From Halichondria panicea (taxonomy: Eukaryota > Porifera > Demospongiae > Suberitida > Halichondriidae): a stretch of DNA of 64,000 bases. The stretch covers positions 7,333,122 to 7,397,121 of the forward strand of contig NC_087377.1 in assembly GCF_963675165.1 (NCBI RefSeq). Reading direction: 5' to 3'. The position numbers and the translations under genes were made by a program. Of the stretch, positions 3,623 to 63,311 are shown piece by piece. Position 1 is the stretch's first letter; each line of letters opens with the position of its first letter. The notes beneath the pieces were generated by a model that was not told where the DNA came from, ran no database searches, and worked only from the letters and a program-made list of their open reading frames with translations.

Positions 3623-4534
3623 AATCTTCCACTCCGCCAACTTCTCCACCTAATTCTGAGAGCATCACTGTCACTAAACTATCAAATGGAAGTGCTGAAG
3701 TGACCTGCACTACCACTGGCCAGAGTTGTCTGGCGTTGTTTCAATCTAAAACCTCTCTTGATCCGATGGTGATGATTGGTTTTATTGAACCACCTAATGA
3801 CAGAACCACTGTCACTCTTAATGCCACTTCCGATGTTTATGTGGTAGTGTACACTTGGAACAGTGATTCTGGTGAGACCACCTTTGATGGGAAGGTATCC
3901 TTCATTAGTCAATTGGAGCTACGAACTAGTAAGCCAAGAGTTAGTTTCAGTTTCAGAATTGTATGCGCTCGTTCTTGCTCTTGCAGGTCCTCCCCCTACA
4001 CAATCACCTCCTGATACTATATACTGGATCTCCAGTTCCATCGCCCATGATAGTACTAATAGCAGGTGAATGGTGCATGGCAATTTATGGCTGGCTGCAT
4101 GTGTACATTGTATTTTGTCTCTTATAAAGGTATCATAACCGTGGTCGTGGTACTGCTTCCCCTGGTAGTCACCATAGCTATTGTTGTGTAGCCGTGGTTA
4201 TTGTGAAGAGAAAACAAAGAGGTGATATCAATTAGTTAAATTTTTTTCATGTCACTTCTTCTCAACACAGTTGAGGTTCCAGAGTCAGATGGAAGAGTGG
4301 ATTGGTCATCAACATTTGCAGGAATTGAGCAGCCCAACGAAGCTTATGCTCCAGTACTGACGAGGAACATTGCTTATGAGCAGATAAAGAAACCAAGGGG
4401 ACAAAGGATCGATGACTCACAAACCCCGGCAACAAGAGAGGGACAGTATGAAAGCATTGAGCCAGTTCATGAATAACGAGGATGTGTTGCCTCAGGGAAA
4501 AGCAAGTTGTGCAAATTATGTTAACGTTAACTGA
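3623..4534 (+). pseudogene. RU1: 3' half of a receptor copy (F, G, H and tail exons), broken
   Basis: Exons by homology with RU2, RU3 and RU6: F 3623-3928, G 3987-4065, H 4130-4221, I 4271-4534. F is open and matches RU6 closely (SNGSAEVTC, VVVYTWNSDSGET). G is 79 bases, not a multiple of three, so the frame is lost. The transmembrane exon has a short insertion near 4181 that brings in TAG. The tail exon is open through YAPV, YEQI and YESI, but one extra A (catgaataacgag near 4470) gives a stop just before the last tyrosine motif. No signal, Ig or FN3 exon lies upstream. At least three independent lesions make this a pseudogene. Confidence 0.85.
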
Positions 4535-5506
4535 CAGATTTCCACATTTATTTTTATCGCACACATTTGTATACCGTATAGCGGGAAATTTTCGTCGGTG
4601 CACATTTTCACTATTTGCATGGCTATACAGAGCCCTCAGCAGAAATTTTCATGGGTTTTAGTATTCGCGTTTCAATGCCAGCTAGGAAACTACACCCACC
4701 AACAGCTTTGCATGTGAAATACCATATTGTTAGTGGCCCTGTAATTAGAAGTAACTGTAACTGTGTATGATCGAATGTGCTTGGTTTGATCTACATGTAT
4801 TGTGCATTGTACGTACTTCACCAGAATGGACAACTGAAACACACACACAATAATATTTACACCTTAAGGGTGCCCGCACATAGTAACAAATTGACATAAT
4901 TTAACCACAAAAATGCAACGTTTAGATCCTGAGACTTGCACACGCAGTATTTAATTTCAATGCGTGCGCTAGTATAGTAGTAACCACAAGTAACAACATA
5001 GTGGTTTTGTGAGAATGTCTTCAATTAAATTAACTACAAGCTGCAAAAGAAAATCAGGTAGCTACACAAACTAATAAATCAATAACAAAATAACACAATC
5101 CAATAAATACAGAGCCAGATTTGTAGCAAAGGAGTGCCTTCAGTAGTAGATGGGAGAAACGTAAGTGTGCCAATAGACCCCAGTCTCAGTACAATCAGCA
5201 CAAGTGTCCGAGTTCCTCAACTAGCATTAGTCACACAGCAGGTTGGATTGTCTTTTAATGTTAATACACACTGTCTTCATTTGTGTCGAGTGGAGACGTT
5301 TCTCTTCAGTGCTTTAGACGTGTACTATCCACGATTCGAGCTGTTCATGGCACTATCCAGTGTTGTCCTTTCTCCTCAATGGCCACCTGCATGTTGATAC
5401 GTCCGGTTGAGTGGCTGGTTGGGTCTTCCACCATGTTCCAGCACACAATGGCATCGCATCCTTCAGAAGCTGGAGATCCTTGCCACCAAGTTAGCAGAAT
5501 GGTCCT

Positions 5507-6148: not shown

Positions 6149-6298
6149 GCCAGCCAATTGTCAGCGCTGTCTGTAGCCCCAGCGTTGCCTATCTCTTCTC
6201 TTCAGGCTACTAACAAATGGCTCTTGATCTTCAACGCTAATTCTGCACTCTACGTACGCAATTGGGGCGTGGTCTACAGGCTTACGTCTTAATTTATA

Positions 6299-7636: not shown

Positions 7637-10600
7637 ATGGACAAGAGTTTGACATCATTCACTTTCTTTTTTGTGATAGGGTCATTCATCATAGCTGTAA
7701 AAGGTAAGTTAATTTAGCAGTAAAGTTATCAATATATTCGGCCGTCTCTAAAAATCAGACGCTTACAAAACAACTTGCTGCAACTCCAGGCTTAGAGATA
7801 CTATACTATAATTATATAATTATATATATTCTAGCTACTGAAAGAGGTTTGATCATAATCCGAAGTGTCAGCTGTTAACCTCAATTGTTTAACGCTGCCA
7901 CTTTTTGCTGACAAAGCGATTATACTGGCATCTGTATAGCACCTACACATAGAGCCTAGCCTTTCTACTTTTTTTTAATTAGCCATAGTAGTTTTTAACT
8001 AAGTGGTGTTGAACACATGGTATAATTTATAGTCAAGTTCTCAATATGGGCACCATTTGTGAAAAAACTACGATCGAGGAGATACTACCGTACGTACTCG
8101 CCTTGCCTCTTAATGCTCATAATTGTATAAAACAAAGGAAGAAGCATGCAAAAAGGCCACGGCAAAATAGACTCAGAAAAAGTGCTGAATTAACATGATT
8201 GGATTGCATCCGGTTTTTCCGTCATAATTAGACAAATCATGCTATCTCACAGCACTTTTCTTAGTCAATTTTTCCTATGCTTTTGCCTTTGATTCTGAGC
8301 ATCGTATGCATGAGGCATGGCGGGTACCCCATAGGTCTAGAAAGTCATAGTTGGGCGTGGCCCCACCCTAAACGCGAACGTAGGTGGGGCCACGCCCAAC
8401 TGAGAAAGTCATAGCAAAGCTTATAGAAATTTTCGCAACAGTCTAGTCGGCAATAGGTGTTGCAAACGTAATTGATTATTGAATGTTTGAACCACCGACT
8501 TTAAGCTGCTGCTGTGCACGAGTAAAGCTACCAGATTACTTCTAATTGTGGTAGGCACAATACCTGATCATTGTCTATTTTTGCATACAATGAAGATAGC
8601 TCTTAGTGTCTCTCCCTAAAAATGCGTGTCACTTGGCTTACTCTAGCATGATGCATTGGACACTGTACAAGTCAAATTGCATACTACACATTCCCACTTG
8701 CATATAGTCTGTAGACATACTTCACATACATAATTATGTAGTTTATTGTTAATTGTTGTATTAACCATTATTTTGGCATATCCGATTTTTGCTGTTCCAG
8801 TAATTACTGTATGCCTAGCTACTCGACTTTTATTTACGTTGTATATATAATTATACCGTATAGCAGGTATATTTCAAGGGTATAAACCTTCGCGGAATGA
8901 CCGTTATAATTTTTGCGGAATAGCATCATTTCTGTAGCATGCATGCATGCATGCGATATTAAATTCGTGGGTATAAATGTTCGCGGTACATGCTTAATCA
9001 GTGAAAACCACGAACATTTATACCCTCGAAATATACCCGTTATAGCTATACGGTGTGTCACTACTTATGGGCGAGTTTTATGCAGTAAACATCTAGCTAG
9101 CAATCCGTGCCAAACCAAATGGCCGGTATTGAGGTGGTTATACTTCAAAGAGCTGAATGTCTATACTCTACATGTTTCTTACAGCTCAGTTCACAGTACA
9201 GCCATTGTCAGTGCTGGAGAGAGCCGAGGGACTGGAGGCAGTGTTCAGTTGTCAGTATCAAGCCGAGGGATTAACTGTCACTTATGACTGGGCAATAAAC
9301 AATTCCTTAGTCTCCACAGATACAGACACTGTTAGAGTACGTCGACCTTCATCTCCTGGTGGACCAACCACAATGACAATCTTGGCTACTCCGCAGCACA
9401 ACAACTCTGTTGTGTATTGTGAGGCTGGTATCAGAAATGGCTCTGATCGTACATTTGAGATTTCACTCACAGCATCTCTAGTTGTTCATGGTGAGTCAAT
9501 ATCTTGATTGTCTTGGCATAATTTGTCCTTCTTTTATTACATTAGAGACGGTCCTCACTCATCTTATTTTTGTATCAAATACCATCACCGTGATGTGGAA
9601 TGCTCTACCCCTCACGGAGTACTGTGTGGATATCACCAAGACAACTCTGGACTCCACTGAAACAGTTGTTCTTGATTCTGTGTGTGGACTGGCTAATGAG
9701 TACATCTTCACGTACTCCAACCCCATCAGTGTGTGTGACAGATTCTCCTTCACTGTGACTCCTACTGAAGGAGAGATGAGGGGAACAACCAGTGAATCAG
9801 TTACGGGGTTCTTTACGAGGGCAGAAGGTGTGTATGGTGCACTCTAACATACACACGCTGCTTGTTACACTTCTACATTGTGCAGGTAGTATTGAAGAAC
9901 CACATCGTATTCGTGAAAGTGGGGAAAATAAGTCAGTAGGGTTTAAAGCCACTGTGAGTAATTTTATAGTTGGTGAGATATACACATGCATACTAACGTT
10001 CTCCAGATACCCAGTTGTACAAGATTCACTTGGTATCGTGTTGACTCTGACTACTTATTGACTCCCTCCACCAGCCTTCCAATCACAGACCCTCTTCTGT
10101 TTGATGGCTCACTCAGTTTCTCCCTCCCCACTGACAAGATGACAGAATACAGTGTCACACTGACTGATGAGAATGGAATAGACCTCGTGTTTGAGAACAT
10201 TAAAATCAGTGAGCGGCTCAGCCTATCATGCATGTGTATACTTTGAGCTAATAATTAATTATTCACTCAGGTACATTTGATGTTCAAGGAGTCCTAGTGT
10301 TTGAATGTCCTGGTGGTGGTTGTATTAGTGCGAGCATAGAGTATGTTGAAGGTACCCTCTCTCCCGGAGCTCTCGTCTGTGTGATACGTATCATTGATGG
10401 AGAGTTGGATTTTACTAACACAAAAGTAATGACAATACCTCGTAGCAGGAGTGACAATTTCACAATATTAGCTGTTCCCAGTGGAAACTACGGAGTGATT
10501 ACGTTTGATCTTGAATGCAATTCTCTGCCGAGAATGCCCATCTCAATTGCAGCTGACAGCAGGAATATATCTATTACGGTGTCCTCCGAAGATGGAGGTA

Positions 10601-11515
10601 TTTTTGTACATGCGCATGCATAGTTTCACTTGTCCTATTCATTTTGTAGGACAACCTCCCAGTAGTGAGGGCGTTTCTGCCACAAAGCTGCCAAACGGAG
10701 ATGCACAAGTGACTTGTGCTGACTCTGATGTCGTTTGTCTTGTTTTGTTTCAGTCTACCATCAGTATCGACAGAGTTTTAGTTGCTCTCATTGACTCATT
10801 TGCGAGTTCAACGAGCTTCTCTGTCAGTGACACTTTTGCTAATGGCCATGTTATAGTCTACTCTTGGAATAGCTCACAGTCTATCTTCGACGGGAAGGTA
10901 TCACTCACTAGACAACTCAATCCACCAATAAGTGAGTGCATTTGGTAGCTCATTTTCAACAGTTTACTGTGTTGTGTATATACAGGTGCACCTTCTACTT
11001 TGTCTCCTACCGATCCCACACCTGTTACTGGGTCCCAATTTCCATTGGCCACTGGAGTAATAGCTGGTAAGCGAATAGTATTAAATGTTTAGCTAAAATT
11101 ACACCTATATAATTATAATAGGGATAACTGTGGTGGTGATTCTGCTATTGCTTGTAGTCATTGTTGTTGGAGCAAGCATCATTGTAATTTGTATAAAAAA
11201 AAGAAAAAATATGCAGAATAAAGGTAAATAAGTCATGCACGTTGCTAGATACAAATACATTGACCTTGATGCGCAGTAACTATTCAAGCTCCCGAGTCAG
11301 GTGGACAAGTGGATTGGTGCTCAACGTTTCCAGGAATTGAGCAGCCCAACGAAGCTTATGCTCCAGTATTCAAGAGGAACATTGCTTATGAGCAAACAAA
11401 GAAACCACGGGGACAGAGAATCGATGACTCACAAGCCCCGGCAACAACAGAAGGAGAGTATGAGAGCATTGAGCCAGTTCATGAGTATGAGGATGTGCTC
11501 CCGAAAACTAGTTAA
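7637..11515 (+). CDS. RU2: intact Ig/FN3 transmembrane receptor with phosphotyrosine-type tail (651 aa)
   Basis: Ten exons with GT..AG junctions: S 7637-7703, A 9185-9490, B 9546-9827, C 9886-9953, D 10007-10208, E 10271-10597, F 10650-10931, G 10986-11066, H 11122-11223, I 11277-11515. They total 1956 bases with no stop. S gives a short signal peptide (MDKSLTSFTFFFVIGSFIIA). A is Ig-like, with C of FSCQYQ, W of YDWAIN and C of VVYCEA. B is FN3-like (ITVMWNALPL ... FSFTVTP). C to F are beta-rich modules with sequons and paired cysteines; I cannot name their fold. G is a Thr/Ser/Pro stalk. H is a membrane helix (VVVILLLLVVIVVGASIIVI) followed by KKRK. I carries YAPV, YEQT, YESI and YEDV. Type I plasma-membrane receptor is inferred. 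The ligand is unknown. Confidence 0.88.
8339..8414. mobile_element. Tiny foldback insertion with 12-bp flanking direct repeats
   Basis: The arms agttgggcgtggccccacc (8349-8367) and its reverse complement (8383-8401) enclose a 15-base loop. The 12-mer agaaagtcatag occurs at 8339-8350 and again at 8403-8414. Arms and flanks fit a very short foldback element with a target duplication, or a replication-slippage product. Confidence 0.6.
8853..9053. mobile_element. M1-type foldback MITE in RU2 intron 1
   Basis: The left end taccgtatagcaggtatatt is mirrored at the right end by aatatacccgttatagctatacggtg. The whole interval can fold into a long stem. It is a diverged relative of the M1 elements listed elsewhere. 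Confidence 0.7.
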
Positions 11516-11642: not shown

Positions 11643-11880
11643 TACCGTATAGCGGGGAATTTTTGCCAGGGAAAGTTTTTTTGCTATTTGGCTGCAGAGC
11701 CCTCAGTAGAAATCTCAGTAGAAATGTTCATGGGATCTAATATTTGCGGTTCATTGCCAGGAGACCACACCCACCAATAAGCTTTGCATGTGAAATACCG
11801 GTGTGTGGGAGTTTATCTTATTAATTTTCTGCCCTCAAAAAACGAAAACCTTCCACCTCACGAAAATTTCTCGCATATGC
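11643..11880. mobile_element. M1 MITE downstream of the RU2 tail exon
   Basis: Starts taccgtatagcggggaattt about 130 bases after the RU2 stop and ends in cacgaaaatttctcgc. Copies at the same relative position follow RU1 (4572), RU3 (19269-19487) and RU8 (52454-52692), so this insertion predates the duplications and probably lies in the 3' untranslated region. Confidence 0.7.
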
Positions 11881-11914
11881 ATGGATAACTAGATAATACA
11901 CTAATGAATAATTA

Positions 11915-12114
11915 TACTGTATAGCGGGTAATTTTCGGGGGAGAAAATATTCGTGGTTCAGCAATATTGAGACATTTCGTGGGTAATATTTTCGTGGTTG
12001 GAGCTTGCACTGCAGGTAAGGTCGCTTCATTTGTGGGTAAAATATGCGTGGTCAGATCTCCAACCACGAAAACCACGAATATTTTGCCCCACGAAAATTA
12101 CACGCTATACAGTA
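11915..12114. mobile_element. M1 MITE with an empty site in the paralogous spacer
   Basis: The left end actgtatagcgggtaatttt is mirrored on the right by aaaattacacgctatacagt. The paralogous segment at 52,719-52,743 reads straight through the insertion point (ctaatgaatatagttcgaac) without the element. This shows an insertion here after the segmental duplication, or a clean loss there. Confidence 0.75.
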
Positions 12115-15633: not shown

Positions 15634-18600
15634 ATGGACAAGGGTTTGACATCTTTCACTTTTCTTTTTATGGCAGGGTCATTCATCATAGCTGTAAAAG
15701 GTAAGGCTATTATGTTACATTGGCAGTACACTTATAAATTTCAGAATACTGCTGCATACAAAATAATGTTGCCACAAGAATACTATTCTGCATGTAGATC
15801 GTATACCGAGTTTCGAATGCCTAATTAGTCAATTGGGAACGACATTGTATAAGCCTGGATACTATTGGAAATTGCACGTGCAGCATGCTATAATTGTATG
15901 CTCCTTGCGAATCAGATCACTCTTTCCTTTGCAACCGCTATATACTAATTATATGCAGCCAGAGATTGTGACTCATAATTATAGTCCAGCATGTGATGCT
16001 CCTCTGCATGCATCAGTACCACCACTATTGGCACACTTTTGGATCCATTTACAGTTGGTTACTGCTAGGGTATACCCCAGCTTATAGTTTTTGTCAGTTT
16101 GTGTGTGCGAGCCTATACTGAATTATTATCTCCCCAGAATCTCGACCCCGGAATATAATTATGACTACCGTATAGCGGGTAATTTTCGTGGGGTAATATT
16201 CGTTATTTTCGTGGGCAGGCTGACCTCCACGAAATTTTATCGTAGGCGTGGCTTATCTGAACGTAGGAATGCCGTGCAGCCACGAGACTAAACGAAATTT
16301 TTACTCACGAAAACTACCGTTTCTCGAGTTGAACGAATTTTTTACCCCACGAAACTTACCCGCTATACGGTATGTACATTAATTGTGTGCTGTCAAATTA
16401 TACTAGTGTGCATTGTACTTTTGAATAAACTGCTGAAACACGTCATGACTGTTACTAATTTAGACAGTGATATCTACTAAACAAGATTGACCTAGCTGAC
16501 TTATAATAATGATTATAGTCTTGATTAAGTACAGTAACTCTGCGTGCTAATATTTTCTCACAGCTCAGTTCACAGTACAGCCATTGTCAATGGAGAGAGC
16601 CGAGGGACTGGAGGCAGTGTTCAGTTGTCAGTATCAAGTGGAGGGATTCTTTGTTACTTATGATTGGGCAATAAACAATACGATAGTCTCAACAGATACA
16701 GAAACTATTAGAGTACGTCCACCTTTATCCCCTGGTGGTCCAACCACACTGATAGTCTTGGCCACTCCGCAGCACAACAACTCTGTTGTTCTGTGCCGTG
16801 CTACAATTAGTAATGGTATTGTTTTTGTAAGGTCTGAATTATCGATCACAGCAACTCTAACTGTTCATGGTGAGTTAGTAACTATATAATGATGTGTATA
16901 AGATTTTGTAGGCATTTCCCTGTAGGAACGGTAATCACTAATGTTTTGACTGCTCCAAATACCATCACTGTGATGTGGAATGCTCTACCTCTCACTGAGT
17001 ATTGTGTGGACATCACCAGGACAACTCTGGACTCGACTGAAACAGTGGTTCTTGATTCTCTGTGTGGACTGGCTAATGAGTACACCTTCACGTACTCCAA
17101 CCCCATCAGTGTGTGTGACAGATTCTCCTTCACTGTGACTCCTACTGAAGGAGAGATGAGGGGAACAACCAGTGAACCAGTTACTGGGTTCTTTACGAGG
17201 GCAGAAGGTGTGTTGTATTGTTACATACACACTTCATACACAATGTATACATAATATTGCAGGCAGTGGAGAACGACGTCGTATTCGTGAAAATGGAGGG
17301 AATAAGTTAGTTGAGTTTGAGGCCACTGTGAGTCATTGTATATATAGTATAAAAGATGCACATGTAACAAAGCTAACGTTCTCCAGATACCAAGTTGCAC
17401 AAGGTTCACTCGGTATAGTGTGAACTCTGACCTATTGACTCCCTCAATCAGTCGTTCAATCACGGACCCTTTGTTTGATGGCTCACTCAGTTTCTCCCTC
17501 CCCACTGACAAGATGATAGAATACAGTGTCACACTGACTGATGAGAATGGAATAGACCTCGTGTTTGGGAACATTTCAATCAGTGAGTTCAATGAGGCGT
17601 GTTCAGATGTTTATTACGACTCCCTTCTTAGGTACATTTGACGTTCAAGACCTGCTAGTGTCTGAATGTCCTGGTGGCGGTGGTATTTGTGTGAGCATTG
17701 AGTATGTTGAAGGTACTATCTCTCCCGGAGCTCTCGTCTGTGCAGTTCATATCATTGATGAAATCCTTGATTTTGCTAACGTGAAACTGGTCACCATCCC
17801 TCGGAATTCTATCGAGAATTTCACCATTCCTGTTCGTAGCGGAGAATACAAAGTGATTGCTTTTGATCTGGAGAATACCAAGTTACCAAGAATGCCCATC
17901 TCTATGGTAGCACTGAGTCTGGACATTATAGTGAATTCGACTGGGGAAGGTATGTGCTCTGTGTGTAAATATGCTTTTCTAGTGACTATAGAAAATTTAT
18001 AGGAACCAGTCCACCACCCAGTGAAGTCGTTAGTGCAACCAACTTATCAAATGGAGATCTTGAGGTGACTTTCTCTGACTCTGCTCGGAATTGTCTAGTT
18101 CTGTTTCAACCCATTTTGGACAGAGTACTACGTGTAGTTGATTTTATCAACACATCTGAAAGCTCTACTGTCGTTGTTGTTCGGAAGGACACCTTTGGTG
18201 ATGGCTATGTGGTGGTGTATTCTTGGAATAGTTCACAGTCCATCTTTGAAGGAGAAGTATCGCTCATTATACAACTGGATCCACCCACCTGTAAGTGCCT
18301 CTGTGGATCAGAGCTAACATCATTCATTGATTTTTCTTTTTTCTATTGCAGCTGCTCCCACTACACCTCCAACGTCTGATCCACAAACAGACCCACCTCC
18401 TCCTGATATGGAGTCCCTGCCAACATCAGTTATCGCTGGTAGGTTTCTAGTGCTGTAAAAGTGTATCATAATGATTCTCTCCATTCACTGTCACAGCAGC
18501 AGCCATAGCTGGTAAGTCAATGTACCTACAGAGCACTGACTAAGTCTATTTGTGTTGAGTTTGACCTTCATAAAGTTGTCATAACTTATGAAGCCATGAT

Positions 18601-19231
18601 TGACCACATAACTTCCGGGGTCGAACTCAACGCTTTTTATATGAGAATATAAGCATGGACACCTCTTAAAAAGGACAACCTCCATATACAATGTTTTAAA
18701 GGCAGCACTCGTACAATAACACATTATTCATCGCAATAGACTTTAGTTTGTAAAATAGCATATTATGACGCAGTTTGTGAATATCTACAGTTTACTTTGA
18801 ATAGGATTCGTACACTCTAATAGTATGGATGCACATTTTTAGGTTTGGTGACTCTGCTATTGCTTGTGGTCACCGCTGTTGGAACTGTCGTAGTGATTTT
18901 AAGAAAACGGAGACAAAATGAAGGTACCTAAATTATTCGTTAACTTGTCTTGAACAATTGACATGCAGTTGAGGTTCCAGAGTCAGATGGAAGAGTGGAT
19001 TGGTCATCAACATTTGCAGGAATTGAGCAGCCTAACGAAGCTTATGCTCCAGTACTGACGAGGAACATTGCCTATGAGCAGACAAAGAAACCACGGAGAC
19101 AGAGGATCGATGACTCACAAGCCCCGGCAACAACAGAGGGACAGTATGAAAGCATTGAGCCAGTTCATGAGTACGAGGATGTGTTGCCTCAGGGAAAAGC
19201 AAGTCGTGCAAATTATGTTAACGTTAACTGA
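15634..19231 (+). CDS. RU3: intact Ig/FN3 transmembrane receptor with five-tyrosine tail (655 aa)
   Basis: Exons: S 15634-15700, A 16564-16869, B 16926-17207, C 17263-17327, D 17387-17582, E 17632-17949, F 18003-18290, G 18352-18438, microexon 18497-18511, H 18843-18923, I 18969-19231. They total 1968 bases, all in frame. The signal peptide is MDKGLTSFTFLFMAGSFIIA. The Ig exon has FSCQYQ, YDWAIN and VVLCRA. E and F keep CPGGGG, CVSIEYVEG and VVVYSWNSSQS. The stalk is DPQTDPPPPD. The helix is LVTLLLLVVTAVGTVVVI, followed by RKRRQ. The tail has YAPV, YEQT, YESI and YEDV and is longer than in RU2, ending SRANYVNVN. YVNV fits the pYxN ligand class of Grb2-type SH2 domains. A 15-base phase-1 microexon (AAAIA) lies between stalk and helix; omitting it would leave the frame intact. 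Confidence 0.88.
15701..16563. other. First intron of RU3
   Basis: Contains a clean M1 MITE at 16166-16372. Much of the rest matches the RU9 first intron (55,631-56,560) and parts match 19,680-19,900. No coding exon is seen. Confidence 0.65.
16166..16372. mobile_element. M1 MITE, near-perfect terminal inverted repeats
   Basis: Begins taccgtatagcgggtaattt and ends with the near-exact inverse (aacttacccgctatacggta). Internal sequence is also palindromic. Paralogous introns at 19,801 and 56,410 lack it at the matching position. Confidence 0.8.
18531..18725 (-). repeat. Spacer-type repeat inside the RU3 stalk-helix intron
   Basis: Read on the minus strand this matches spacer sequence at about 7021-7100 and 60,890-60,960 (a block containing gaggttgtcctttt and ggtgtccatgcttatat). 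It lies between the microexon and the helix exon and lengthens that intron to about 330 bases. Confidence 0.5.
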
Positions 19232-21706: not shown

Positions 21707-21978
21707 AACTTTCCCACACAGTTGTTTGACGGTATACAATGTATCTACCCATCTTTGTACAAAACTGAAAATGAAAGTTATAATTGTACACAGGAGTGCA
21801 TCATAACATGATTCTACTGTCTTACTATTGTGATCTTTAATTAAAATTTAATACTAAATCTAGAATGTGATTCATTTTTCTACTACATAGCTAGCTTGGC
21901 ACACCTATGCTTTGATGGATGATTACACTAGTTTGACATTTCTTCTATTTGTGGGGACGTTCACCATAGCTGTAAAAG

Positions 21979-24296: not shown

Positions 24297-25039
24297 GTAA
24301 GTCGGCTATTATATGTCAGTGTTGTACATATACTTTTTTGTGTGCTGTGCCATATCCTCCCAAAAAATTGTACTCGCAGATAATTGGCATTAAAACCGCT
24401 TGCGAGTAATTGAAAAATTTAATTTCACAACTTGAGCAAGAATTTAATTTAATTAATTTTTAAGCTAAATAGTGAAATCGCAAACAAATCAGGCTACCTG
24501 TGAAAATATGTCACCTTAAGGTAATTATAAGTAGACAAAAGCAACCTCTCACGAGCGGACCTTCTGGATTCCGGACAGCGGACAATCTTTGTGCAAAACT
24601 TCCTCTTATAACGGACAAACAGAAAATTACACATGTATATTTTATGTCCATATTATGGTATTATGTTATTGCTATAAATCGTACTGCCATACTGCAAAGC
24701 ATGAAAGAATTATGCTTTATATCTTTGATTTTAGCAAGTTTCTTACTTATCGTACTTTTTGAACTAGAATTAGGGTCTAATTATAATTATACATGAATAC
24801 TATCTTGATATGGCAATTTGAATGAACCTTCAAAAAGAGACTAGGACAAACACTCTGCCTCCAAAGTGTCCTTTATTCGGAGGTTCCATATAGTGCTTTC
24901 GCAGGTTGACCTCGAACCTCAAAAATTCTGTCATTTGAATTTCTATCGTCATATAATTATAACAACGCAATTTGTGAACATAATTATTTTTGCTAGATAG
25001 TACTGTGTTAATAAAGTTGTTGGGTTCCCTTTTCCTCAA
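24297..25039. other. Long E-F intron of RU5
   Basis: About 740 bases, against roughly 50 in RU2 and RU3. AT-rich, with no recognised exon. The 3' end reads ttttcctcaaaatc, lacking the AG present in RU1 and RU6. Confidence 0.6.
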
Positions 25040-47455: not shown

Positions 47456-47459
47456 GTGA

Positions 47460-47940: not shown

Positions 47941-47942
47941 TT

Positions 47943-48762: not shown

Positions 48763-48830
48763 ATGTGATTACACTAGTTTGACATTCCTTCTGCTTGCAA
48801 TTGCAGGGACATTCACTGTAGCTGTAAAAG

Positions 48831-49935
48831 GTAAGTTAGCTATGCATGGTCTCTAGGCATTATTTTGCTATTCTGCAATTAGGTCCCAACATCACCTTGT
48901 GTTTGTAATGTTACCATAATTATTCAGAGATTGTGGCTGTAATGATAGTACCGTAAAAACTCGATTTAAAGCGACACTTTTAAATAATTACGTTTTGGCA
49001 AAAGTAAAGTTTTAATGTACACAAAAAATTATATGGTGCTATATGGGCGAAATGTCCAAGTGTCGCTTATTTAGAGGGTCGCCTTAAATCGAGGATTTAC
49101 GGTACCGTATAGCGGGAAATATTCATGGGGTGCAAAAATTTCCTGTATAAGTTTACGCGAAAATAAACTGGGAGACTTGATCTCCCACGCACCGGTATTT
49201 CACATGCAAAGCTCTTGGTGGGTGCATGCATGGGTTTCCTGGATTGAAATGCAAATATTAGAACCCATGAACATTAATTTCTGCTGAGGTCTCTAGGGCC
49301 AAAATAATAGCGAAAGTTTACACCAGCAAAATTTTCCCGCTATACGACAATGGCTCACAATTTGTGGCCAGTGTATATAGATACGTTACAATACCGTCTT
49401 TCTTCTAATTACAGTACCACCCTAATTAAGAAGCGCGCCAGCCACCAATTGAGCGGCAATGGAATTATATTTTGTGGGGCTTATATAATATGTAATTATT
49501 AGAAAGAAATAAAACGGCCTAAAATCAATAATCCCTAAATTATAATTCATACATTTAACTCATTATAACCTTGTTGCACGGCTACTATCACTCTACATTC
49601 TAACGTCCAATTACACTAGCACCACTCCAATAAGTATAAGTGCCAAACTAGCTATTTGTGTGCGCGCCATGCACTGTAAACCACAATTGTGTCGCTGCAA
49701 TTAGAAGAAAAACGATAGATCTAGTTAGACCGTATAATATCAAAATAGATCTATTGTGCCTAAATGGACAACTGAAAGTAACACAGAAATTTGTTTATAA
49801 TTATCATTTTTACACTTAATAAGAAGACTATATTTACCCCTATCTAAGGTAGTAATCATGATGTACAGTATATATAGGCACTTTCTGTCTGCCTAGTACC
49901 TTATAGTCTATAGTGTATATATACTGATCACACAG
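48831..49935. other. First intron of RU8
   Basis: Contains a foldback MITE (M7, about 48948-49104; ends gtaccgtaaaaactcgattt and its near inverse ending acggtac) directly abutting an M1 MITE (49103-49348). The rest resembles the RU5 first intron. No exon is seen. Confidence 0.6.
48948..49104. mobile_element. M7 foldback MITE abutting an M1 MITE
   Basis: Left end gtaccgtaaaaactcgattt, right end aaatcgaggatttacggtac. The right end runs into the M1 start (taccgtatagcgggaaat), so the two elements share or nearly share a GGTACC-like boundary. Confidence 0.65.
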
Positions 49936-52323
49936 CCCAACAGTTTACAATTGAGCCTGAGTCAGTGGTATACAAGCCGAGGGATTATTGGCAGAGTTTA
50001 AGTGCCTGTCTCCTGGAGCACTAGCTCACCCTTGGTTCGTGGATGGCATTGAGTCTACAAGCCCTAACACTTCATCTGAAATCAGAGTAGCTGGAGGTAT
50101 TTCAGGTCGTCCCTCAGTGCTGACCATCCCAGCCAGTTTACAGTTCAACAACAGTGTCATTCCGTGTCTCGCAGCTTCAGTGAGTAGTGTAGTGTTCTCA
50201 AGGAATGCAACATTGATAGTTGGTGAGTTGTAGATAATTATTTGTAGAGAGTACACCTATAGACACGGTTGCCTTAATTTAATGAGGCCTTTTTTCAGAG
50301 CGTGTATCTATTGAAGTGGTGAATAGTGAAACCCACCTTGCTGTCTCTGTGACGAATAACTTCACTCTGAATAATGTTACCTATCGTGTGGACATCTCGC
50401 TTACTGCTCTGGGCACCAATGAGATGGTTGCACTTCCTCCTCTAAATGGGGTAACAAATCAAGCACAGTTTAATTTCGGATACCCTAACCACACTGTCTG
50501 TGATATATTCACCTTCATTGTGACTAATTAGTGAGTCAGGAATAGAAGGAAGAGATCCAGTGAACCTGCAGTCCCTGCATGGGTTTTTCCTACGAGTATA
50601 ACAGGTACTGCAGTACATTTTGTATATTGATATTTTGCACTCAGCTCTGTGTTCTTCCACGTACAGGTGATAGCATTGCCCCACTCATCAGCCGGAATGA
50701 AGATGTGTTGATGAAAATTGTGACTTTCATTGATGCGGTAACTGGAACTTCACCATTATAGTATTAATGCTCCATTTTGCAGGTGCCTAACTGCCGCAAC
50801 TTCACTCATTACCGAATAGACTCAGCTGCTTTGCCAAGTCCCATCACTGAGATCATACAATACCCGCTGACTGTGCTGAGTTTCCCTCTTCCCTCTGACA
50901 TAATAACCAATGTCACTGTCACACTTACTGCACTGGGGGGTGGAACTGATATTCCAAAACATAGCAATACGTACGCCATAATAATTATTGGAACAATAAT
51001 TATAATGGCTAATTGTGCATGTTTTATCCTTGTAGGAACAACTGATGTTCAAAATTTGACAGTGAACATTTGCCCTGAAGGAAACTGTATTAGTGTGAGC
51101 ATTGTGTATGTTGAAGGTATACCCTCTCTCCCGGAGCTCTTGTCTGTGTGATACGTATCACTGATGGAGAGTTGGATTTTGGTAGCATAAAAGTAATTAC
51201 CATACCTCATAGCAGGAGTGACAATTTCACAATATTAGCTGTTCCCAGTGGAAACTACAGAGTGATTACGAACGCAATTTTCTGCCGAGAATGCCCATCT
51301 CAATAGCAGCTAACAGCAGGGACATATCTGTTACGGTGTCCTCAGGAGATGGAGGTATTTCTGTACATGTATATATTTATTTATATACATGTATTTCTGA
51401 TTATGTGTTTATATAGTGTCACTTGTCCTATTTATTTTGTATATAGGACAACCTCCCAGTTGTGAAGGCGTTTCTGTCACAAAGTTGCCAAATGGAGATG
51501 CGCAAGTGACTTAATTGTGCTGACTCTGATGTCGTTTGTCTTGTTTTGTTTCAGTCTACCATCAACAATCTCGACAGAATTTTAGTTGCTCTCATTGACT
51601 CATTTGCAAGTTCAACGACCTTCTTTGTCAGTGACACCTTTGCTAATGGCCATGTGATAGTCTACTCTTGGAATAGCTCACAATCCATCTTCGACGGGAA
51701 GGTATCAATCATTAGGCAACTCAATCCACCAACAAGTATAAGCGTATTTGGTAGCTCATTTTCATACTGTTTACTGTGTTGTGTATACACAGGTGCACCT
51801 TCTACTTTGTCTCCTACCGATCCCACACCTGTTACTGGGTCCCAATTTCCATTGCCCGGAGTAATAGCTGGTAAAGCGAATAGTATTAAATGTGTAGCTA
51901 AAATACACCTATATAATTTATAATAGGGATAACTGTGGTGGTGATTCTGCTATTGCTTGTAGTCATTGTTGTTGGAGCAGGCATTGTAATTTGTATTATA
52001 AAAAAAAAGAAAAAAGATGCAGAATGAAGGTAAATAATGTCAATGCACGTTGCTAGATACAAATACATTGACCTTGATAAGCAGTAACTATTTAAGCTCC
52101 CGAGTCAGATGGACAAGTGGATTGGTGCTCAACGTTTCCAGGAATTGAGCAGCCCAATGAAGCTTATGCTCCAGTACTCAAAAAGAACATTGCTTATGAG
52201 CAAATAAAGAAACCACGGAGACAGAGGATTGATAACTCACAAGCCCCGGCAACAATAGAGGGAGAGTATGAGAGCATTGAGCCAGTTCATGAGTACGAGG
52301 ATGTGCTCCCGAAAACTAATTGA

Positions 52324-55563: not shown

Positions 55564-55630
55564 ATGGACAAGAGTTTGACATCTTTCACTTTTCTTTTCA
55601 TGGCAGGGTCATTCATCATAGCTGTAAAAG

Positions 55631-56572
55631 GTAAGGCTATTATGTTACATCGGCAGTACATTTTAATTTTAATAATACTGCTGCATACAAAATTTAAATG
55701 TTGCCACAATGGATAGATTGTATACCGAGTTTCGAGTGCCTAATTAGTCAATTGGGAACGACATTGTATAAACCTGGATACTATTGGGAATTGCACGTGC
55801 AGCATGCTAATATGTATGCTCCTTAATTGCGAGTCAGATCACTCTTTCGTTTGCAACCGCTATAATTATACATAATTATATATGCAGCCGGAGATTGTGA
55901 CTCATAATTATAGTCCAGCATGCTCCTCTGCATGAGTACCACCACTATTGGCACACTTTTGATCCATTTACAGTTAGTTGCTGCTAGGGTACCTCGGCTT
56001 ACCAGTGTGTGTGTGTGAGCCTATATAATAGTTGTAGGCCCGAAGGCCCAAAGCTGTAGTATCCCGAGCGTAGTGAGGGTGCTATACGTATACTAAGGGC
56101 CTGAACTGATTTAGAATAGTGAAGCTAGACTACGTTAACACAAAGAAGACTCTGAAACCAAGAGTTTCTACAAGCCTCAAGCAACGTTAAAGCTTCGCTC
56201 TGGCTAGTCTACATAAAAAAACTTGAAGGCAGTTAATTTCCGTCTCTTGAGAATCATGCATAGCAAAAACTGTAGGCATAATCAGTATAATAGACCTATA
56301 CTTAGAAGACCTCTGACAGCTATTGAGAGGTCTATAAGTAAAATAATGGACCTCTCAGTGACCAATCAGTATTACTACAAGCATTTTCTAAACTGAATTA
56401 TTATCTCTCCAGAATCTCAACCCCGAAAAATGTGACCATGTAAATCTGTACATAATAAAATTGTGTGCTGCCAAATTACTGTAATATTGATATCTAGTAA
56501 AAAAGATAGGCTCGTACTATTGATTAACTACAGTAACCCATAACGACGTCTGGTGCTAATATTTTCTCACAG
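55631..56572. other. First intron of RU9
   Basis: Matches the RU3 first intron except for an inserted R4 repeat (56036-56385) and absence of the M1 MITE. No exon is seen. Confidence 0.6.
56036..56385 (+). repeat. R4 interspersed repeat
   Basis: Starts with a hairpin-like gcccgaaggcccaaagctg and gctatacgtatac, then a body with gagtttctacaagcctc that parallels the R1 and R2 bodies (ttctataggcttctag). Inserted in the RU9 first intron relative to RU3. Confidence 0.5.
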
Positions 56573-57203
56573 CTCAGTTCACAGCACAGCCAGTGTCAGT
56601 GGAGAGAGCCGAGGGACTGGAGGCAGTGTTCAGTTGTCAGTATCAAGAGGAGGGATTGACTGTTACTTACGAGTGGTTTCTAAACAATTCAATAGTCGGA
56701 GACAGTACAGAAACTGTTAGAACACTTCGACGTACTGGTGAACCAACCACACTGATAATATTGGCCACTCCACAGCACAACAACTCTACTGTGTACTGTG
56801 AGGCTACAATCAGAAATGGCTCTAATCGTCCATTTGAGATTTCATCCACAGCATCTCTAGTTGTTCGTGGTGAGTTAATATCTTGGTTGCCTTGGCATAA
56901 TTAAATTTTGTCCTTCTTTTATTACATTAGAGACGATCCTCACTCCCTTTATTATTGCACCGAATACCATCACTGTGATATGGAATGCTCTACCTCTCAC
57001 TGAGTATTGTGTGGACATCAACACGACAGCTCTGGACTTCACTGAAACAGTTGTTATCGATTCTCTGTGTGGATTAACTAATGAGTACATCTTCATGTAC
57101 TCTGATAACAGTGTGTGTGCCAGATTCACTGTGACTCCTACTGATGGAGAGATGAGGGGAACAACCAGTGAATTATGTACTGGGTTATTTACGAGGGCAG
57201 AAG

Positions 57204-57659
57204 GTGTGTCTTTACCATAATAGTATTCACATTAGTTGTTAGCCTCCTTCACCGGCCTTCAAGCGAAAAGAAGGCCTGCTACTGACTGCTTGCGCATGCG
57301 CGAAATTATTGGATATATTTTCCCGTAAAATTCCCTATAATACTGAATAATACTGAATTTATCACGAAAATATCCTGACAAAGTATTGAAAGTCATACAC
57401 AGAGCTATTATAGCTAGCTAGCTAGAGACAGAGCTGTAGGTTTGTTGTACAGCTATTTTCTTTCTGATAGTGTCAGTAGCAGTAGTATAGTAGACTTTTC
57501 ACCAAGTTAGTATTTGATGGGCGTGGGCTGTCCATATAGGCTCTTGTCAGCTTTCACTCTGTTCAGACGATTGTCATCCACACTGTTGCTGGTTGTGAGT
57601 CTTTTGTTATGCCTCGAGGCGTAGCCGCACGAGGGATACGGTAAAGCTGACTGTGTGTG

Positions 57660-57698
<39 letters not shown>

Positions 57699-58722
57699 GT
57701 GTGTGTGTGTGTATTCCAGCTATAACTGCTCAACGGTTGTAATGTAACGAAAACTAACAGCTTCTATAGGCTTCTAGCCACGTTCTCTTGGATTTTGATT
57801 CGTGGATTAGCAAACTAAAGCTTCTTTCTCGAGTTATGGCTAGTTTGACTCACATTGAAGGCTGTTGCAGTCTCTTCAGAATCTTTCATAGCATCATCTG
57901 TCCGCACAAACTTTCTATTCAACATATGAGTTAGCCTTGCACTAAAGCGCTAGCTTTTTGTTAGCTACAATACTCAGAAAATATCTTTTAAAACAGCTAG
58001 CTAGCAGTAGCCATTTGTGAAATTGATCTCTTTGGACACACCCTTTAATTATTCCTGTGGATGTAATGCGCATGCGCGCTCATTCCCCATGTGTGAGAAA
58101 ATAATATCCCAAGATCCTCCTGGCAGAATCATCTTTGTCTTGAGGGCCTGGTATATAAGCCACAAAACACTACCATATAACAATATAGATAACAATATGC
58201 ATGTACACAGGTCTTTTCTTCTTAGATATTATATACACTGAACTACAGATCCTGGAAGAATCAATTTTCTTCTTTCTTGAGATCCTGGTAAGCCACATAA
58301 TACAACAATAGATGCATGTAAATAAGTCTTTTCTTCTCAGTGACTTTATATAGATAAGCTAACTTTAATACTAATATAACACTCTAATACTTTTAAGCGA
58401 AAGCAAAAACATGGCGAGAGGCATTAGCACAGCGCCAGCTTGAACACTAGTTAACATAGTAGGCTAAGGGTAGCTATCAGAATACTATCAGATGGGCTAG
58501 AAACCTTCAATGGAACCTTCTATCTACTTCCTTTAATCCACTTCCGTTTGTTGTGACGTCACTGTTTTACTGACCATAAACGTTGTTATCCGGATTCGCC
58601 AGATACCGGCGGAAGATTAGCGCATGCGCAAGCAGTCGATACCAGGCCCACTCTTCGAGGAAATGCGGCCTGGGATCGAGGCTAATTAGTTGTTAGTATT
58701 ACACTTCTATAATATTATGCAG
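57204..58722. other. Enlarged B-C intron of RU9 with an R1 repeat
   Basis: The R1 copy at 57607-58452 matches 36681-37530 over most of its length. A small foldback lies near 58,630-58,680 (gataccaggccc / gcctgggatcgaggc). The remainder is AT-rich without exons. Confidence 0.65.
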
Positions 58723-59969
58723 GTAGTGGAGAACAGCATCGTATTCTTGTTACTAAAAGGTAGTCAAATTTAGATCAACTGTGAGTGATTCGATTTTAGT
58801 TGTTCGCTAGGTTGTTATGTGAATGCATTTTGAGTTCTCTCTAATATTCTAGGTTCCAAGTTGCACAAGGTTCACTCGGTATCGTGTGGACTCTGACCTA
58901 TTGACTCCCTCAATCAGCCGTTCAATCACGGACCCTCTTCTGTTTGATGGCTCACTCAGTTTCTCCCTCCCCACTGACAAGATGACAGAATACAGTGTCA
59001 CACTGACTGATGAGAATGGAATAGATCTCGTGTTTGAGAATCAGTGAGTTTAATAGTACGTCTTCCTTTGCTAATTATTTGATCCCCAGGTACATTTGAC
59101 GTTCAAGACCTCCTAGTGTCTGAATGTCCTGGTGGTGGTGGTATTTGTGTGAGCATTGTGTATGTTGAAGATACCCTCTCTCCCGGAGCTCTCGTCTGTG
59201 CAGTTCGTATCATTGATGGAGTGTTTGATTTTGCTAATATGAAACTGGTTTCCATCCCTCGGCATTATATTGAGAATTTCACCATTCCTGTTTCTAGTGG
59301 AGAATACCGAGTGATTGCTTTTGATCTGGAGAGCAACCATTTACCAAACATGCCCATCTCTATGGTAGCACTCAGTCAAGACATTATGAAAATGAACACT
59401 AGTGTTGAAGGTACCTGCTCTGTGTGTTATTGCTGTGCTCTAATCTTAGTCATTTACCGTAGACATTACCAGTCCACCACCCAGAGAGGGCATTAGTGCA
59501 TCCAATTTAACGAATGGAGATGTTAGTGTGACCTGCTCCAACTCTGCCCTGAATTGTCTAGTCTTGTTCCAATCCACCACCATCTTGGACAGAGTATCTG
59601 TTGGTTTCATCACCGCATCTGAAGTATCAACTGTCCTCTCTTTAAATGACACCCTTGGTGATGGCTATGTGGTGGTGTACTCTTGGAATAGTTCACAGTC
59701 CATCTTTGAAGGGAAGGTATCACTCATTATGCAACAACTGGATCTACTCACCAGTAAGTGCCTCTGTAGATTATCAGAGCTAACATAATTCATTGCTTTT
59801 TCGTTGCAGCTGGTCCCACTATACCTCCAATGTCTGATTCACAAACAGACCCACCTCCTCCTGATATGGAGTCCCTGCTGACATCAGTTATCGCTGGTAG
59901 GTTTCTAGTGCTGTAAAAGTGTATCATAATGATTCTCTCCATTCACTGTCACAGCAGCAGCTATAGCTG

Positions 59970-62895
59970 GTAAGTCAATCTACAGAGCACTGACTAGTTT
60001 AATATATATAATAATTATTTGCTATTGTTATAATGCTAGAAAAATATAGTGATACCTTTGCTGTTTATAACGGAGATATTGGGCCACCGTTTTCAATCAC
60101 AGCGCTCCACTCCAATTGAGCACCAAGCGGAATTATTTTTTACTGGCACTTAGAGAGAAATTATAGCTTGGCCTAAAATCGAGGCTATAGCAAGGGCGTA
60201 TGAAAGAGAAGAGGGCATGCAACTACAATTTACAAATGGGCGGGGGTTTATGTCTAAATATAGTAAACAATTTATTGCACGTGCACTTTATACTTTATAG
60301 ACTATCCTAGTGGGAGGTTGGGCTAAATATAGCATATCCTGCTGACTCATCAATAATACGACGCATACACAGTATACTTTGTGAGTTGCATGCCCTCTTC
60401 TCTTCATACGCCCTTGGCTATACGTACAAATGAACAATCAGGTGGCCTTGTGGAACAGCTATATACTATCTTCTATTCCAATGCTATATATAAGCGCCAA
60501 CTATAATTATGTAAAATTATTGTTTTATCTTGTTCTATTTGCGCGTCACTGGAAAATCATCTAATTATTTGTGGCCCTGTAAGTAGAAGTAACTGTAACT
60601 GTGCATGATCAAATGTGCATGGTTTGATCTACATGTATTGTGCATTGTATGTACTTTACCAGAATGGACAACTGAAACACACACATGCACTACTTAATAA
60701 TAGAGGAGTACTATATTTGCTATCAAAGGTATACCCCTCCGGTAGTGATGTACAATAAAAATGTGTACTAGACCTATTACACAGTTCGAAGAGGCTGCAA
60801 GACAGACTTTCATCATGCGTATACATGTAACCTCACTCCAGCACTTCACTACTTTAGTAATTTGCATGACTGTGAATAATGTGTTACTTTACTGAGTGCT
60901 GCCTTAAAAGGAGGTTGTCCTTTTCAGAGGTGTCCATGCTTATATCCTCATATAAAATGATACATGTATACTCAAATGGAATGCATGCTCTTTGTTGACA
61001 CAAGGGTATGAGTACTAAAAGCTAACATTCTTGGTTAATGGACTGCATGTTTTGTTACCCGAGGCGCGCGTGGGCGGCCACGGGTATAGTAGTCTGTTTG
61101 TTTGTAACAATAATATCTACTCACCTGGATGCCATAGCACTGCGTTTACAGCATAGATAGTCTTCACACAACAATATCTTGGTTTAAATAGTGGCAGATT
61201 TTGATGTCTTTGTCGAGTAAAAGCGAGCAAAAGCTAAGAAGCTTAAATTTGCCACGTGGCCTTGAGTCAAGGTACGGGATCACTTCAGCTGAAAATATGT
61301 AGTCAAGGCTTGATTACGTATTTTCAGCTGAAGTGATCCCGTACCAGGAACAATTGAATAGGGGAGTAGAATTGTGACTGCACTGGTTGTTGACTGACTC
61401 TGGATCCTATACTCCAGCCTAGAAGGAGCCATACTTCTCTTAGTCTAAGACTCCAGGCTTCTTTGCTGTGATTCCAGTCCATAGTGCATGTCTCATGCAT
61501 GTACGTTGTTAGTTTAGTTTTATTGCTCTTGAGTTGCTGTGCTAGCGCATGCTAGTCATACATGCTACATGCATTGCATTATCACTCTTCTGGTTTCTTT
61601 ATTATCATGTCACCAGCCGAGGGTTTGCACTTTAGTGCTCTAGTTTGGTTTGTCTGTTTGTTTGTTTGTAATTTCAGGATCTGCTCACCTGGCTGCCACA
61701 GCACTGCGTTTATAGCATGGATAGCCTTCACACAATAAGTTATTAGTTTTAACAATAGTAGATTTCGATGTTAGAGCTTGGTTGTCGAATAAAAGCAAGC
61801 AAAAACTAAGAAGCTTAAACTTGCACAATGGCAGCTAGCTAGCTAGCTAACTACACGCGGCCTTTGTTCGAGGTATCCTCCGTATTTACAGCTGAAGTGA
61901 TCCCGTACCAAAAACAGTGGAAAAGGGTCACTACAATAGAAAGTTAGAATTGTGACTTGTTTGTTGCTCTGTTAGCTGACTCCAGGATCCCAGGAGTCAT
62001 ATCATACATGTACTTCTCTGAGACTCCAGGCATCTTTGCTGTGATCCTAGTCCACTGGGCATGCCTCATTACCACTAAAACTCTGTTCTCAATGCATGCC
62101 TCTAGTCTGGTTTAGTTTTATTGCTCCTGCATGAGTTGCTGTGCTAGACAGTTCAGTCATACACCACTACATGCATTGCATTATATCACTCTTCTGGTTT
62201 CTTTATAATCATGTCACTAGCCGAGGGTTTGCACTTCAGTGCTCTAGTTTCCACGTCAGCACAATGCACAGTACATCATAGGGTACAGCTAGGGATGATC
62301 TCACACAAAAGGTTGTGAACAATTGATTCGAGGCTCTAGTTACATACGCTTCAACTGCATCCCATTGAATAGTACATGTGTAGCTTATAATTATGACCAC
62401 AAATCTACTGCTTGTTTTTTCCATTAGCCACTCAAAATCTGTCATCAATTCCTTTTTTAGTCACGGTTTAATAAAGCTGTTGTGTTTGACTATTCTATTT
62501 ATTTATAGTTGTCTAAACTGAACATGAATGTTTATATAATGAGTGCACTTTTCTCATAATTATTATGATTGTGGTTGTTGTTGTCATGGTAGCGTTCTAG
62601 TAAACTGGTCAGCTTAGAATGCATTCTTGTAATGATACTTTTCCAGAGATTGATCAGACAATCTTTTTCATGGCATTTAAACGTACTGGTTAAACGGAGT
62701 TAATCAGGGAGACTCCCATACCCATCGTATAATCCTGCGCATGCGTACCGCTGGTCAGCTTAGAATGCATTCTTGTAATGATTCTTTTCCAGACTTCACA
62801 AAAGAATTTATTAACGTGGACATAATTTAGAGTTAATTACAAATTCGCTAAATTAGTACCCTTTTTCATTATCACTTGTCATATTCCTTTTGTAG
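59970..62895. other. Spacer RU9-RU10 with R3 repeats
   Basis: Contains an M2 MITE (60191-60416), blocks paralogous to 4,735-7,420, and two R3 repeats (61056-61345 and 61650-62250) that interrupt the paralogy between about 61,040 and 62,320. A head-to-head R3 junction forms an inverted repeat at about 61,271-61,345. The signal, Ig and FN3 exons of RU10 are not found here. Confidence 0.6.
60191..60416. mobile_element. M2 MITE
   Basis: Left end caagggcgtatgaaagagaa, right end cttctcttcatacgcccttg; most of the interior matches the inverted copy at 28794-29026. Confidence 0.75.
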
Positions 62896-63311
62896 GACAA
62901 CCGGCCAGTAGTGAGGGTGTTTCTGCCACAAAGCTGCCAAACGGAGATGCATAAGTGACTTGTGCTGACTCTGATGTCGTTTGTCTTGTTTTGTTTCAGT
63001 CTACCATCGCTCTCGACAGAATTCTAGTTGCTCTCATTGACTCAATTGCGAGTTCAACAACCTTCTCTGTCAGCGACACCTTTGCTAATGGCCGTGTGAT
63101 AGTTTACTCTTGGAATAGCTCACAATCCATCTTCGACGGGAAGGTATCACTCATTAGGCAACTCAATCCACCGACAAGTGGGTGTATTTGGTAGCTCATT
63201 TTCATACTGTTTACTGTGTTTTGTGTACAGGTGCACCTTCTACCTTGTCTCCTACCGACCCCCCACCTGTTACTGGGTTCCAATTTCCATTGGTCACAGG
63301 AGTAATAGCTG
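62896..63311 (+). pseudogene. RU10: orphan F and G exons of a receptor copy
   Basis: F 62896-63177 and G 63231-63311 are near-identical to RU2 and correctly bordered. In-frame TAA at 62952-62954 replaces the CAA codon of RU2. No upstream exon is recognised. The following intron is interrupted by a minus-strand LTR element, so helix and tail exons could lie beyond the window. Confidence 0.82.

Follow-up and report, generated by a model that had tools for sequence, protein, structure and literature searches.

We analyzed a 64,000-nucleotide stretch of the genome of the sponge Halichondria panicea (hereafter the window; NC_087377.1, our contig C1, positions 7333122-7397121 in an assembly of 131.46 Mb on 39 contigs), which carries a tandem array of predicted receptor genes with immunoglobulin (Ig)-like and FN3-like modules, numbered RU1 to RU10. 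We found that the window covers a small fraction of a cluster about 0.84 Mb long in which, as judged from exon order and splice sites, the same ectodomain is joined to two different tyrosine-bearing tails, an arrangement that recurs at least once on contig C8. The original prediction held that the family has one shared signalling tail, and searches with the exons of modules D and E and of the second tail overturned that claim. We conclude that the genes probably form a demosponge paired-receptor-like recognition complex, with self/non-self discrimination as its probable role.

A search of the window with the exon peptides of RU3 bore out the ten copies or fragments claimed originally, nine on the plus strand and one (RU6) inverted on the minus strand (Table 1). 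The best matches between copies reached E values of 1e-40 to 1e-54, confirming that the array is real and far beyond chance. The module order is signal, Ig-like, FN3-like, C (two exons, C1 and C2), D, E, stalk, transmembrane (TM), and tail. RU2 and RU3 are indeed open across 10 and 11 exons, which join into predicted proteins of 651 and 655 aa, and each of their introns has its GT and AG. All RU3 introns are phase 1 except the intron inside C, which is phase 0, so that most modules could be moved with the frame kept. In the other copies, intact exons have AG/GT in the expected phase at or near the positions equivalent to those of RU2 and RU3, in a check that was biased toward such sites because it searched the expected phase. 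The membrane-less copy of the original prediction is RU9, for which neither a TM nor a tail exon was found within the window, and for RU7 the RU3 exon-peptide search of the window turned up nothing beyond a C1-exon match. Copies in decay were likewise recovered: RU1, RU4, RU5, RU8, and RU10 are visibly broken, and the RU5 Ig exon has an in-frame stop at which its near-duplicates elsewhere in the genome, L011 (98.6% identity) and L013 (97.7%), are open. RU8 has a near-duplicate in L015 (96.1%), and remnants like RU4 also occur in L012 and L018.

The first tail (tail 1) is present in six of the ten window copies (RU1, 2, 3, 4, 5, and 8), and the proposal of a single shared tail is not supported. 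In RU3, tail 1 is 86 aa long, ends in a stop, and gave no kinase match. Its motifs are N-x-A-Y twice followed by YE[DE]VL, and all 30 intact tails of the main type keep YE[DE]V, with NI[AT]Y kept in 29 of them. Y35 and Y68 are invariant in 16 aligned tails drawn from the main cluster and from a second cluster described below. The RU3 tail has four core Y-x-x-I/L/V motifs (YAPV, YESI, YEDV, and YVNV). We considered an immunoreceptor tyrosine-based activation motif (ITAM) for YESI...YEDV and rejected it: the spacer is 5 residues, the second half is YxxV, the pattern does not match, and YESI is absent from the second cluster.

Across the genome, the RU3 tail exon gave 78 matches at E ≤ 1, which merged into 71 places. 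Of these, 49 (26 plus, 23 minus) lie at C1:6.91-7.75 Mb, the main cluster; 19, all on the plus strand, form a second cluster at C1:3.44-3.70 Mb; and the other three are a pair on contig C2, close to 1.56 Mb, and a single place at C1:8.72 Mb. A genome query with the second-cluster tail revealed no further cluster. Counts from genome searches are lower bounds, and one search scored 85 of 272 candidates; of the 43 main-cluster tail places outside the window, we fetched 40 (leaving out C1:6915450, 7277518, and 7479261). Tail-1 places in the main cluster lie mainly on the minus strand up to about 7.25 Mb and mainly on the plus strand beyond that point, a pattern that an inversion of one half would give. 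The receptors of the eight second-cluster loci fetched (L043-L050) have the order Ig-FN3-Ig-FN3-TM-tail, without C, D, or E, and the full exon order is present in six of ten copy groups (order, not splice sites, being counted). Their tails keep NIAYEQ and EP.H.YEE[VI]L in all nine read and are missing YESI and YVNVN, and the first tyrosine (NEAY) is replaced by His in four of the nine.

The second tail (tail 2) emerged from queries with modules D and E, which matched places at C8:4.48-4.53 Mb (L059-L061) with about 36-42% identity in D and E. L059 has Ig, FN3, C2, D, E, and TM exons and then a long exon that contains five YDV/YET-type motifs, PPPLPPP, and three matches to the pattern of the immunoreceptor tyrosine-based inhibition motif (ITIM); in L060 and L061, what comes after the E exon belongs to another gene, whose product would be an Ig-like TM protein with tyrosines and prolines in its tail. 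The tail-2 exon matched 21 stretches, merged by hand at 2 kb: six on contig C8, giving four loci, and 15 on contig C1, all within the main cluster, giving 10 loci, of which we read one on C8 (L059, in full) and six on C1. Five of the latter (T2a-T2e) have Ig, FN3, D, and E, a TM reading frame, and the tail-2 exon 1.1-2.0 kb downstream of E, with no tail-1 match; in T2d, the C2 exon is frame-broken. The sixth (T2f) has D and E of lineage B (0.81 and 0.84 identity to B) and tail 2 about 4 kb downstream. The tail-2 exon starts after TGTCTACAG in five of five cases checked, and a phase-0 donor, AAG|GTGTT, is common to all seven TM exons of this class (TM-2), through which the TM-2 exon would be spliced to the tail-2 exon. 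Tail-2 exons are open in all six contig C1 copies read and keep GYDVV, EYETV, and PPPLPP. In T2a (C1:7302554) and T2b (C1:7634228), the tail-2 exon is followed, 1.1-1.6 kb downstream, by another and shorter copy of itself, so that the tail could be doubled or have an alternative form. We place RU6 in the second class because its TM exon (KKGKRGNKVLHSSYIHEL) is of the same type; the window has no tail-2 exon, no tail exon of RU6 was found in it, and RU6 could be a short-tailed receptor.

The two tail classes draw on similar Ig exons. By exon identity the copies sort into lineages A, B, and C, and some are mosaics: RU2 has Ig, FN3, and C2 of lineage A with D and E of lineage C, and L036 has FN3 and C2 of A type with D and E of C type. 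Between RU3 and L001, identity is 97-100% over the stretch that runs from mid-FN3 to the tail with its introns, yet it is 87.6% for the Ig exon and 72.5% for the next intron. The Ig exon of RU9 is nearest to that of the tail-2 receptor T2e (96%), and its E exon is nearest to those of tail-1 receptors (L005 at 93%, with T2c next by path). On an Ig tree of 25 rows built by a quick method, the tail label needs five changes for five tail-2 receptors, the starred branches force five, and shuffled labels needed 4.7 on average (500 of 500 shuffles as low), so the tail classes are unclustered. For FN3, D, and E, the corresponding numbers of changes are 4, 3, and 3, and on the E tree 21 of 500 shuffles were as low; RU7 and RU9 entered the trees without a tail label, and T2f, with no Ig exon in the piece fetched, was left out. 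Mean identities within tail-2 receptors, between these and lineage-A tail-1 receptors, and within the latter were 0.70, 0.69, and 0.71 for Ig; 0.82, 0.80, and 0.80 for FN3; 0.88, 0.87, and 0.88 for C2; 0.72, 0.75, and 0.82 for D; and 0.65, 0.69, and 0.79 for E (T2f included for D and E). Ig exons have thus moved relative to the membrane-proximal part and tail class, and, as far as five receptors show, Ig specificity and signalling class are evolutionarily uncoupled. The original picture of a multigene family of single-pass receptors whose copies are gained, decay, become inverted, and form mosaics is supported.

Selective constraint was estimated as omega with IQ-TREE codon fits to single intact exons (null fits with kappa up to 20), excluding exons that contain stops or frame changes or lack splice sites and including intact exons from copies broken elsewhere. 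The fits assume no recombination within exons, which is doubtful for FN3 given the comparison of RU3 with L001. Set A (16-21 copies) comprised lineage A and the mosaics RU2, L036, and L019, and set B (12-16 copies) all other RU-type copies (lineages B and C and the contig C2 pair). Omega for Ig, FN3, C2, D, E, and tail 1 was 0.97, 0.57, 0.78, 0.56, 0.50, and 0.62 in set A and 0.71, 0.65, 0.42, 0.57, 0.47, and 0.43 in set B. The set A Ig exon was not different from 1 (2ΔlnL 1.0); the set B Ig exon was below 1 (2ΔlnL 4.3), as were, with 2ΔlnL of 5.9-31.1, all other exons of both sets save set A C2. Pooled pairwise values were highest for Ig in both sets. In the second cluster (6-9 copies), FN1 (0.50, 2ΔlnL 7.3) and the tail (0.53, 2ΔlnL 5.7) were below 1, and Ig1 (0.83, 2ΔlnL 0.9) and Ig2 (1.32, 2ΔlnL 1.2) were not different from 1. 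The distal Ig is thus the least constrained part of tail-1 receptors, with little net constraint, and D, E, FN3, and tail 1 are constrained.

These values bear on an unlikely alternative, that the family is largely dead, with few working receptors and the rest duplication debris. We counted 54 RU-type copy groups (64 groups minus 10 of the second cluster), and 36 of them fail a criterion of six intact core exons that omits signal, C1, stalk, and TM; the five visibly broken window copies and the retroelement and hAT remains at the window edge point the same way. However, 18 of the 54 groups have all six core exons intact, and 36 is an upper bound: tail-2 receptors fail by definition (L020 and RU6 are of that class), L018 is counted twice, and L007, L038, and L039 narrowly miss the threshold with five good exons and no split. 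The significant constraint on D, E, FN3, and tail 1 also argues against a dead family.

Duplicated blocks raise the further idea that part of the copy number is an assembly artefact, with alternative haplotypes placed in tandem. In its favour is the RU6 block, which is 100% identical over 2976 nt to L058 (C1:7.68 Mb, about 320 kb away; a third copy, L057, is 94% identical) and which may reflect either a recent duplication or an error of assembly; the identity of other matching blocks is 93.3-98.6%. Yet blocks of one neighbourhood differ by unequal amounts, and most copies are far more diverged (mean Ig identity 0.71 in set A) and lie on one contig, so we regard this explanation as very improbable.

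We next consider what the modules are. Intact Ig exons keep the core residues C21 (33 of 34), W34 (34 of 34), and C77 (33 of 34), an Ig profile matches titin Ig at 3.3e-8, and 14 of 29 members match Pfam Ig_3 at E ≤ 1 (best 5.2e-5), with the RU3 Ig exon alone at 0.031, below the Pfam cut-off. The distal module is, by these sequence features, Ig-like and a member of the immunoglobulin superfamily (IgSF). In L006, an otherwise open copy, both core Cys of the Ig exon (517-819) are absent, with Gly and Leu instead. The FN3-like module matches Pfam fn3 weakly in 4 of 18 members (best E 0.054) and gave no PDB profile match at E ≤ 10. As originally suspected, the other modules were not recognized as a named family: Pfam gave nothing credible for D or E (16 members each), and a Pfam search placed neither RU2 nor RU3 in a described family, with no match for RU3 at E ≤ 10 and weak matches only for RU2 (best ECSCR at 2.3e-5, over stalk and TM, below its cut-off). 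D and E had no PDB sequence relative below E 0.2. The fold model of E is a seven-strand sandwich (predicted local distance difference test (pLDDT) 83; best Z 7.7, root mean square deviation 2.5, 67 aligned) with no Foldseek match at E ≤ 0.001; that of D is poor (pLDDT 59; best Z 8.2, deviation 4.2, 93 aligned). Their best structural rows mix FN3 and cytokine-receptor domains with unrelated proteins at Z of about 7-8, which may reflect merely a common arrangement, and no profile-profile link joined D or E to the FN3 module or D to E; we therefore did not adopt FN3 as the identity of D and E. The sequence comparisons support the view that the modules fit no named family beyond Ig, and D and E would be two beta-rich modules outside Pfam coverage.

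Ig plus FN3 is a common architecture of adhesion proteins. The genes might accordingly encode an adhesion family, a combinatorial surface identity for cell sorting and tissue integrity with tails linked to the cytoskeleton and no immune role, to which the NxxY repeats of tail 1 and the proline-rich motifs of tail 2 would be suited as adaptor or cytoskeletal links; a 2025 review assigns sponge IgSF proteins mainly to cell adhesion and recognition (PMC11999971). Two tail classes sharing one pool of Ig exons, along with many decayed copies, would nevertheless be more usual in recognition receptors, and we consider a pure adhesion role rather unlikely.

Sponges discriminate self from non-self with high specificity (PMC5450542), and one review describes a lack of conservation among the candidate receptors of sponges, cnidarians, and ascidians (PMC12065747); our searches of an open-licence library turned up no report of the present family. 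Paired receptors have similar ectodomains on different signalling ends (PMC3533184), and the vertebrate KIR, LILR, and PIR families are like the sponge family in having clustered genes of this kind, in a comparison of architecture, not sequence. Clustered genes and similar ectodomains on different signalling ends were all found here, with the TM-2/tail-2 join predicted from splice sites. Unlike in KIR, LILR, and PIR, both sponge tails are long and tyrosine-bearing; unlike in inhibitory KIR and LILR, the RU2, RU3, L043, and T2e tails gave no match to the ITIM pattern; and unlike in activating KIR and LILR, which have a short tail and a positively charged TM residue, the TM exons read (RU2, RU3, RU6, T2a-T2e, and C8) encode a hydrophobic core free of charged residues. 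We say paired-receptor-like, and claim no membership, because the ITIM and charged-TM features fail in the contig C1 sequences tested. Botryllus FcoR is a family of 53 loci in a histocompatibility locus encoding type I receptors with variable-type Ig and a tail that may hold a core Y-x-x-I/L/V (PMC12065747); the sponge family is likewise large and type I with Ig and, in RU3, this tail core, but where FcoR has sushi and two C2-type Ig domains, it has the unnamed modules D and E, and Pfam gave no sushi match in RU2 or RU3 at E ≤ 10. Hydractinia Alr genes are clustered, single-pass IgSF genes with many pseudogenes (PMC11067881), again a likeness of architecture, not sequence; polymorphism and allorecognition control have been shown for Alr1 and Alr2, whereas the sponge family is known here from one assembly. 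The Geodia cydonium receptor tyrosine kinase, a sponge membrane receptor (cited in PMC12018476), also has an Ig-like ectodomain but differs in its kinase domain, RU3 ending in the 86-aa tyrosine tail.

For the paired-receptor-like complex, we postulate the following mechanism. Type I receptors encoded in the main cluster, each with one of two tyrosine-bearing tail exons adjoining (TM-2 being spliced to tail 2), would bind a variable cell-surface or microbial ligand through the distal Ig domain, and once they cluster, their tails would become substrates of tyrosine kinases. Tail 1 (N-x-A-Y twice, YE[DE]VL) and tail 2 (YDVV, YETV, proline-rich) would recruit different adaptors, and the two classes would yield different, perhaps opposing, outputs for one specificity. 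The likeliest use of such receptors would be discrimination of self from non-self or of microbes, and their function may thus lie in immunity or allorecognition. A further step, which we put forward tentatively and hold to be possible at best, is that recombination moves one exchangeable Ig pool between the tail classes of a sponge allorecognition or immune complex, so that one ligand would give two outputs; if true, this would mean that paired-receptor design occurs in an animal phylum that branched off early, either as an old inheritance or as a separate invention.

Several results weigh against the paired-receptor-like reading as a whole. No canonical ITAM, ITIM, immunoreceptor tyrosine-based switch motif (ITSM), or hemITAM was found in tail 1 of RU2, RU3, or L043 or in tail 2 of T2e, and many copies are decayed. 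Set A C2 (omega 0.78, 2ΔlnL 1.3) and second-cluster FN2 (0.74, 2ΔlnL 0.8) are not below 1; tail-2 exons, with omega of 1.05 over five sequences, are not different from 1, and constraint on tail 2 does not emerge from the fits. Omega in the loops resembling complementarity-determining regions (CDR) was 1.76 for CDR3, 0.60 for CDR1, and 0.75 for CDR2, none significant; positive selection there, suggested by pooled pairwise windows above 1, was not upheld by the likelihood test. Identity in D and E is no higher among tail-2 receptors (0.72, 0.65) than across the two classes (0.75, 0.69), the trees hold only five tail-2 receptors, and a single origin of the tail-2 label is possible on the E tree. 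The family is a concrete candidate for the receptors of sponge self/non-self discrimination, a large IgSF complex with weakly constrained distal domains, constrained proximal modules, and two signalling classes with common Ig exons.

Table 1. Predicted receptor copies and fragments, in window positions
Feature	Positions	Strand	Details
RU1 fragment	3623-4534	+	E exon 3623-3928; tail-1 exon 4271-4534, broken by stop/frame change
RU2, open 651-aa receptor	7637-11515	+	Gene model; lineages by exon identity
RU2 exons, distal	7637-7703 signal, 9185-9490 Ig, 9546-9827 FN3-like, 9886-9953 C1, 10007-10208 C2	+	
RU2 exons, proximal	10271-10597 D, 10650-10931 E, 10986-11066 stalk, 11122-11223 TM, 11277-11515 tail 1	+	
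RU3, open 655-aa receptor	15634-19231	+	Gene model
RU3 exons, distal	15634-15700 signal, 16564-16869 Ig, 16926-17207 FN3-like, 17263-17327 C1, 17387-17582 C2	+	
RU3 exons, proximal	17632-17949 D, 18003-18290 E, 18352-18438 stalk, 18497-18511 mini, 18843-18923 TM, 18969-19231 tail 1	+	
RU4 remnant	20629-21706	+	Ig broken, FN3 start adjoining part of TM, tail 1 partial
RU5, lineage B	21927-25846	+	Signal-like 21927-21977, Ig with one in-frame stop, FN3 23279-23575
RU5, proximal part	C2 23752-23935, D 23985-24314, E to 25354, TM and tail 1 to 25846	+	
RU6, inverted, lineage B	30377-34363	-	Ig 34067-34363, FN3 33719-34021, C2 33356-33539
RU6, proximal part	D 31822-32148, E 30704-31009, TM exon 30377-30468	-	TM exon of tail-2 class, 3' end inferred
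RU7	40889-41654	+	Ig 40889-41194, FN3 41246-41527, C1 match 41598-41654
RU8	48773-52323	+	Signal-like 48773-48829, Ig, FN3, C2, D and E broken, TM, open tail 1 52097-52323
RU9	55564-59895	+	Signal 55564-55629, Ig 56573-56869, FN3 56931-57203, C2 from 58853
RU9, proximal part	D 59090-59410, E 59463-59753, stalk match 59815-59895	+	
RU10 fragment	62901-63310	+	E with one stop, stalk-like match

At the array edge lie retroelement remains with RNase H and integrase domains (window 2-1978) and a C-terminal fragment of a hAT transposase (2220-2480). Between copies we saw by eye short elements with CCGTATAGCGGG-like ends, at about 8860-9060, 11650-12110, 16170-16370, and 19270-19490. Elsewhere in the genome, further groups of Pfam ig matches lie at C4:5.66-5.72, C6:2.57-2.62, C9:6.68-6.70, and C1:17.7-18.0 Mb. 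Three genome places carry silicatein-like, Ser-type active-site exons (ASYAF/SSYAF), which we take to be silicatein, a demosponge marker.

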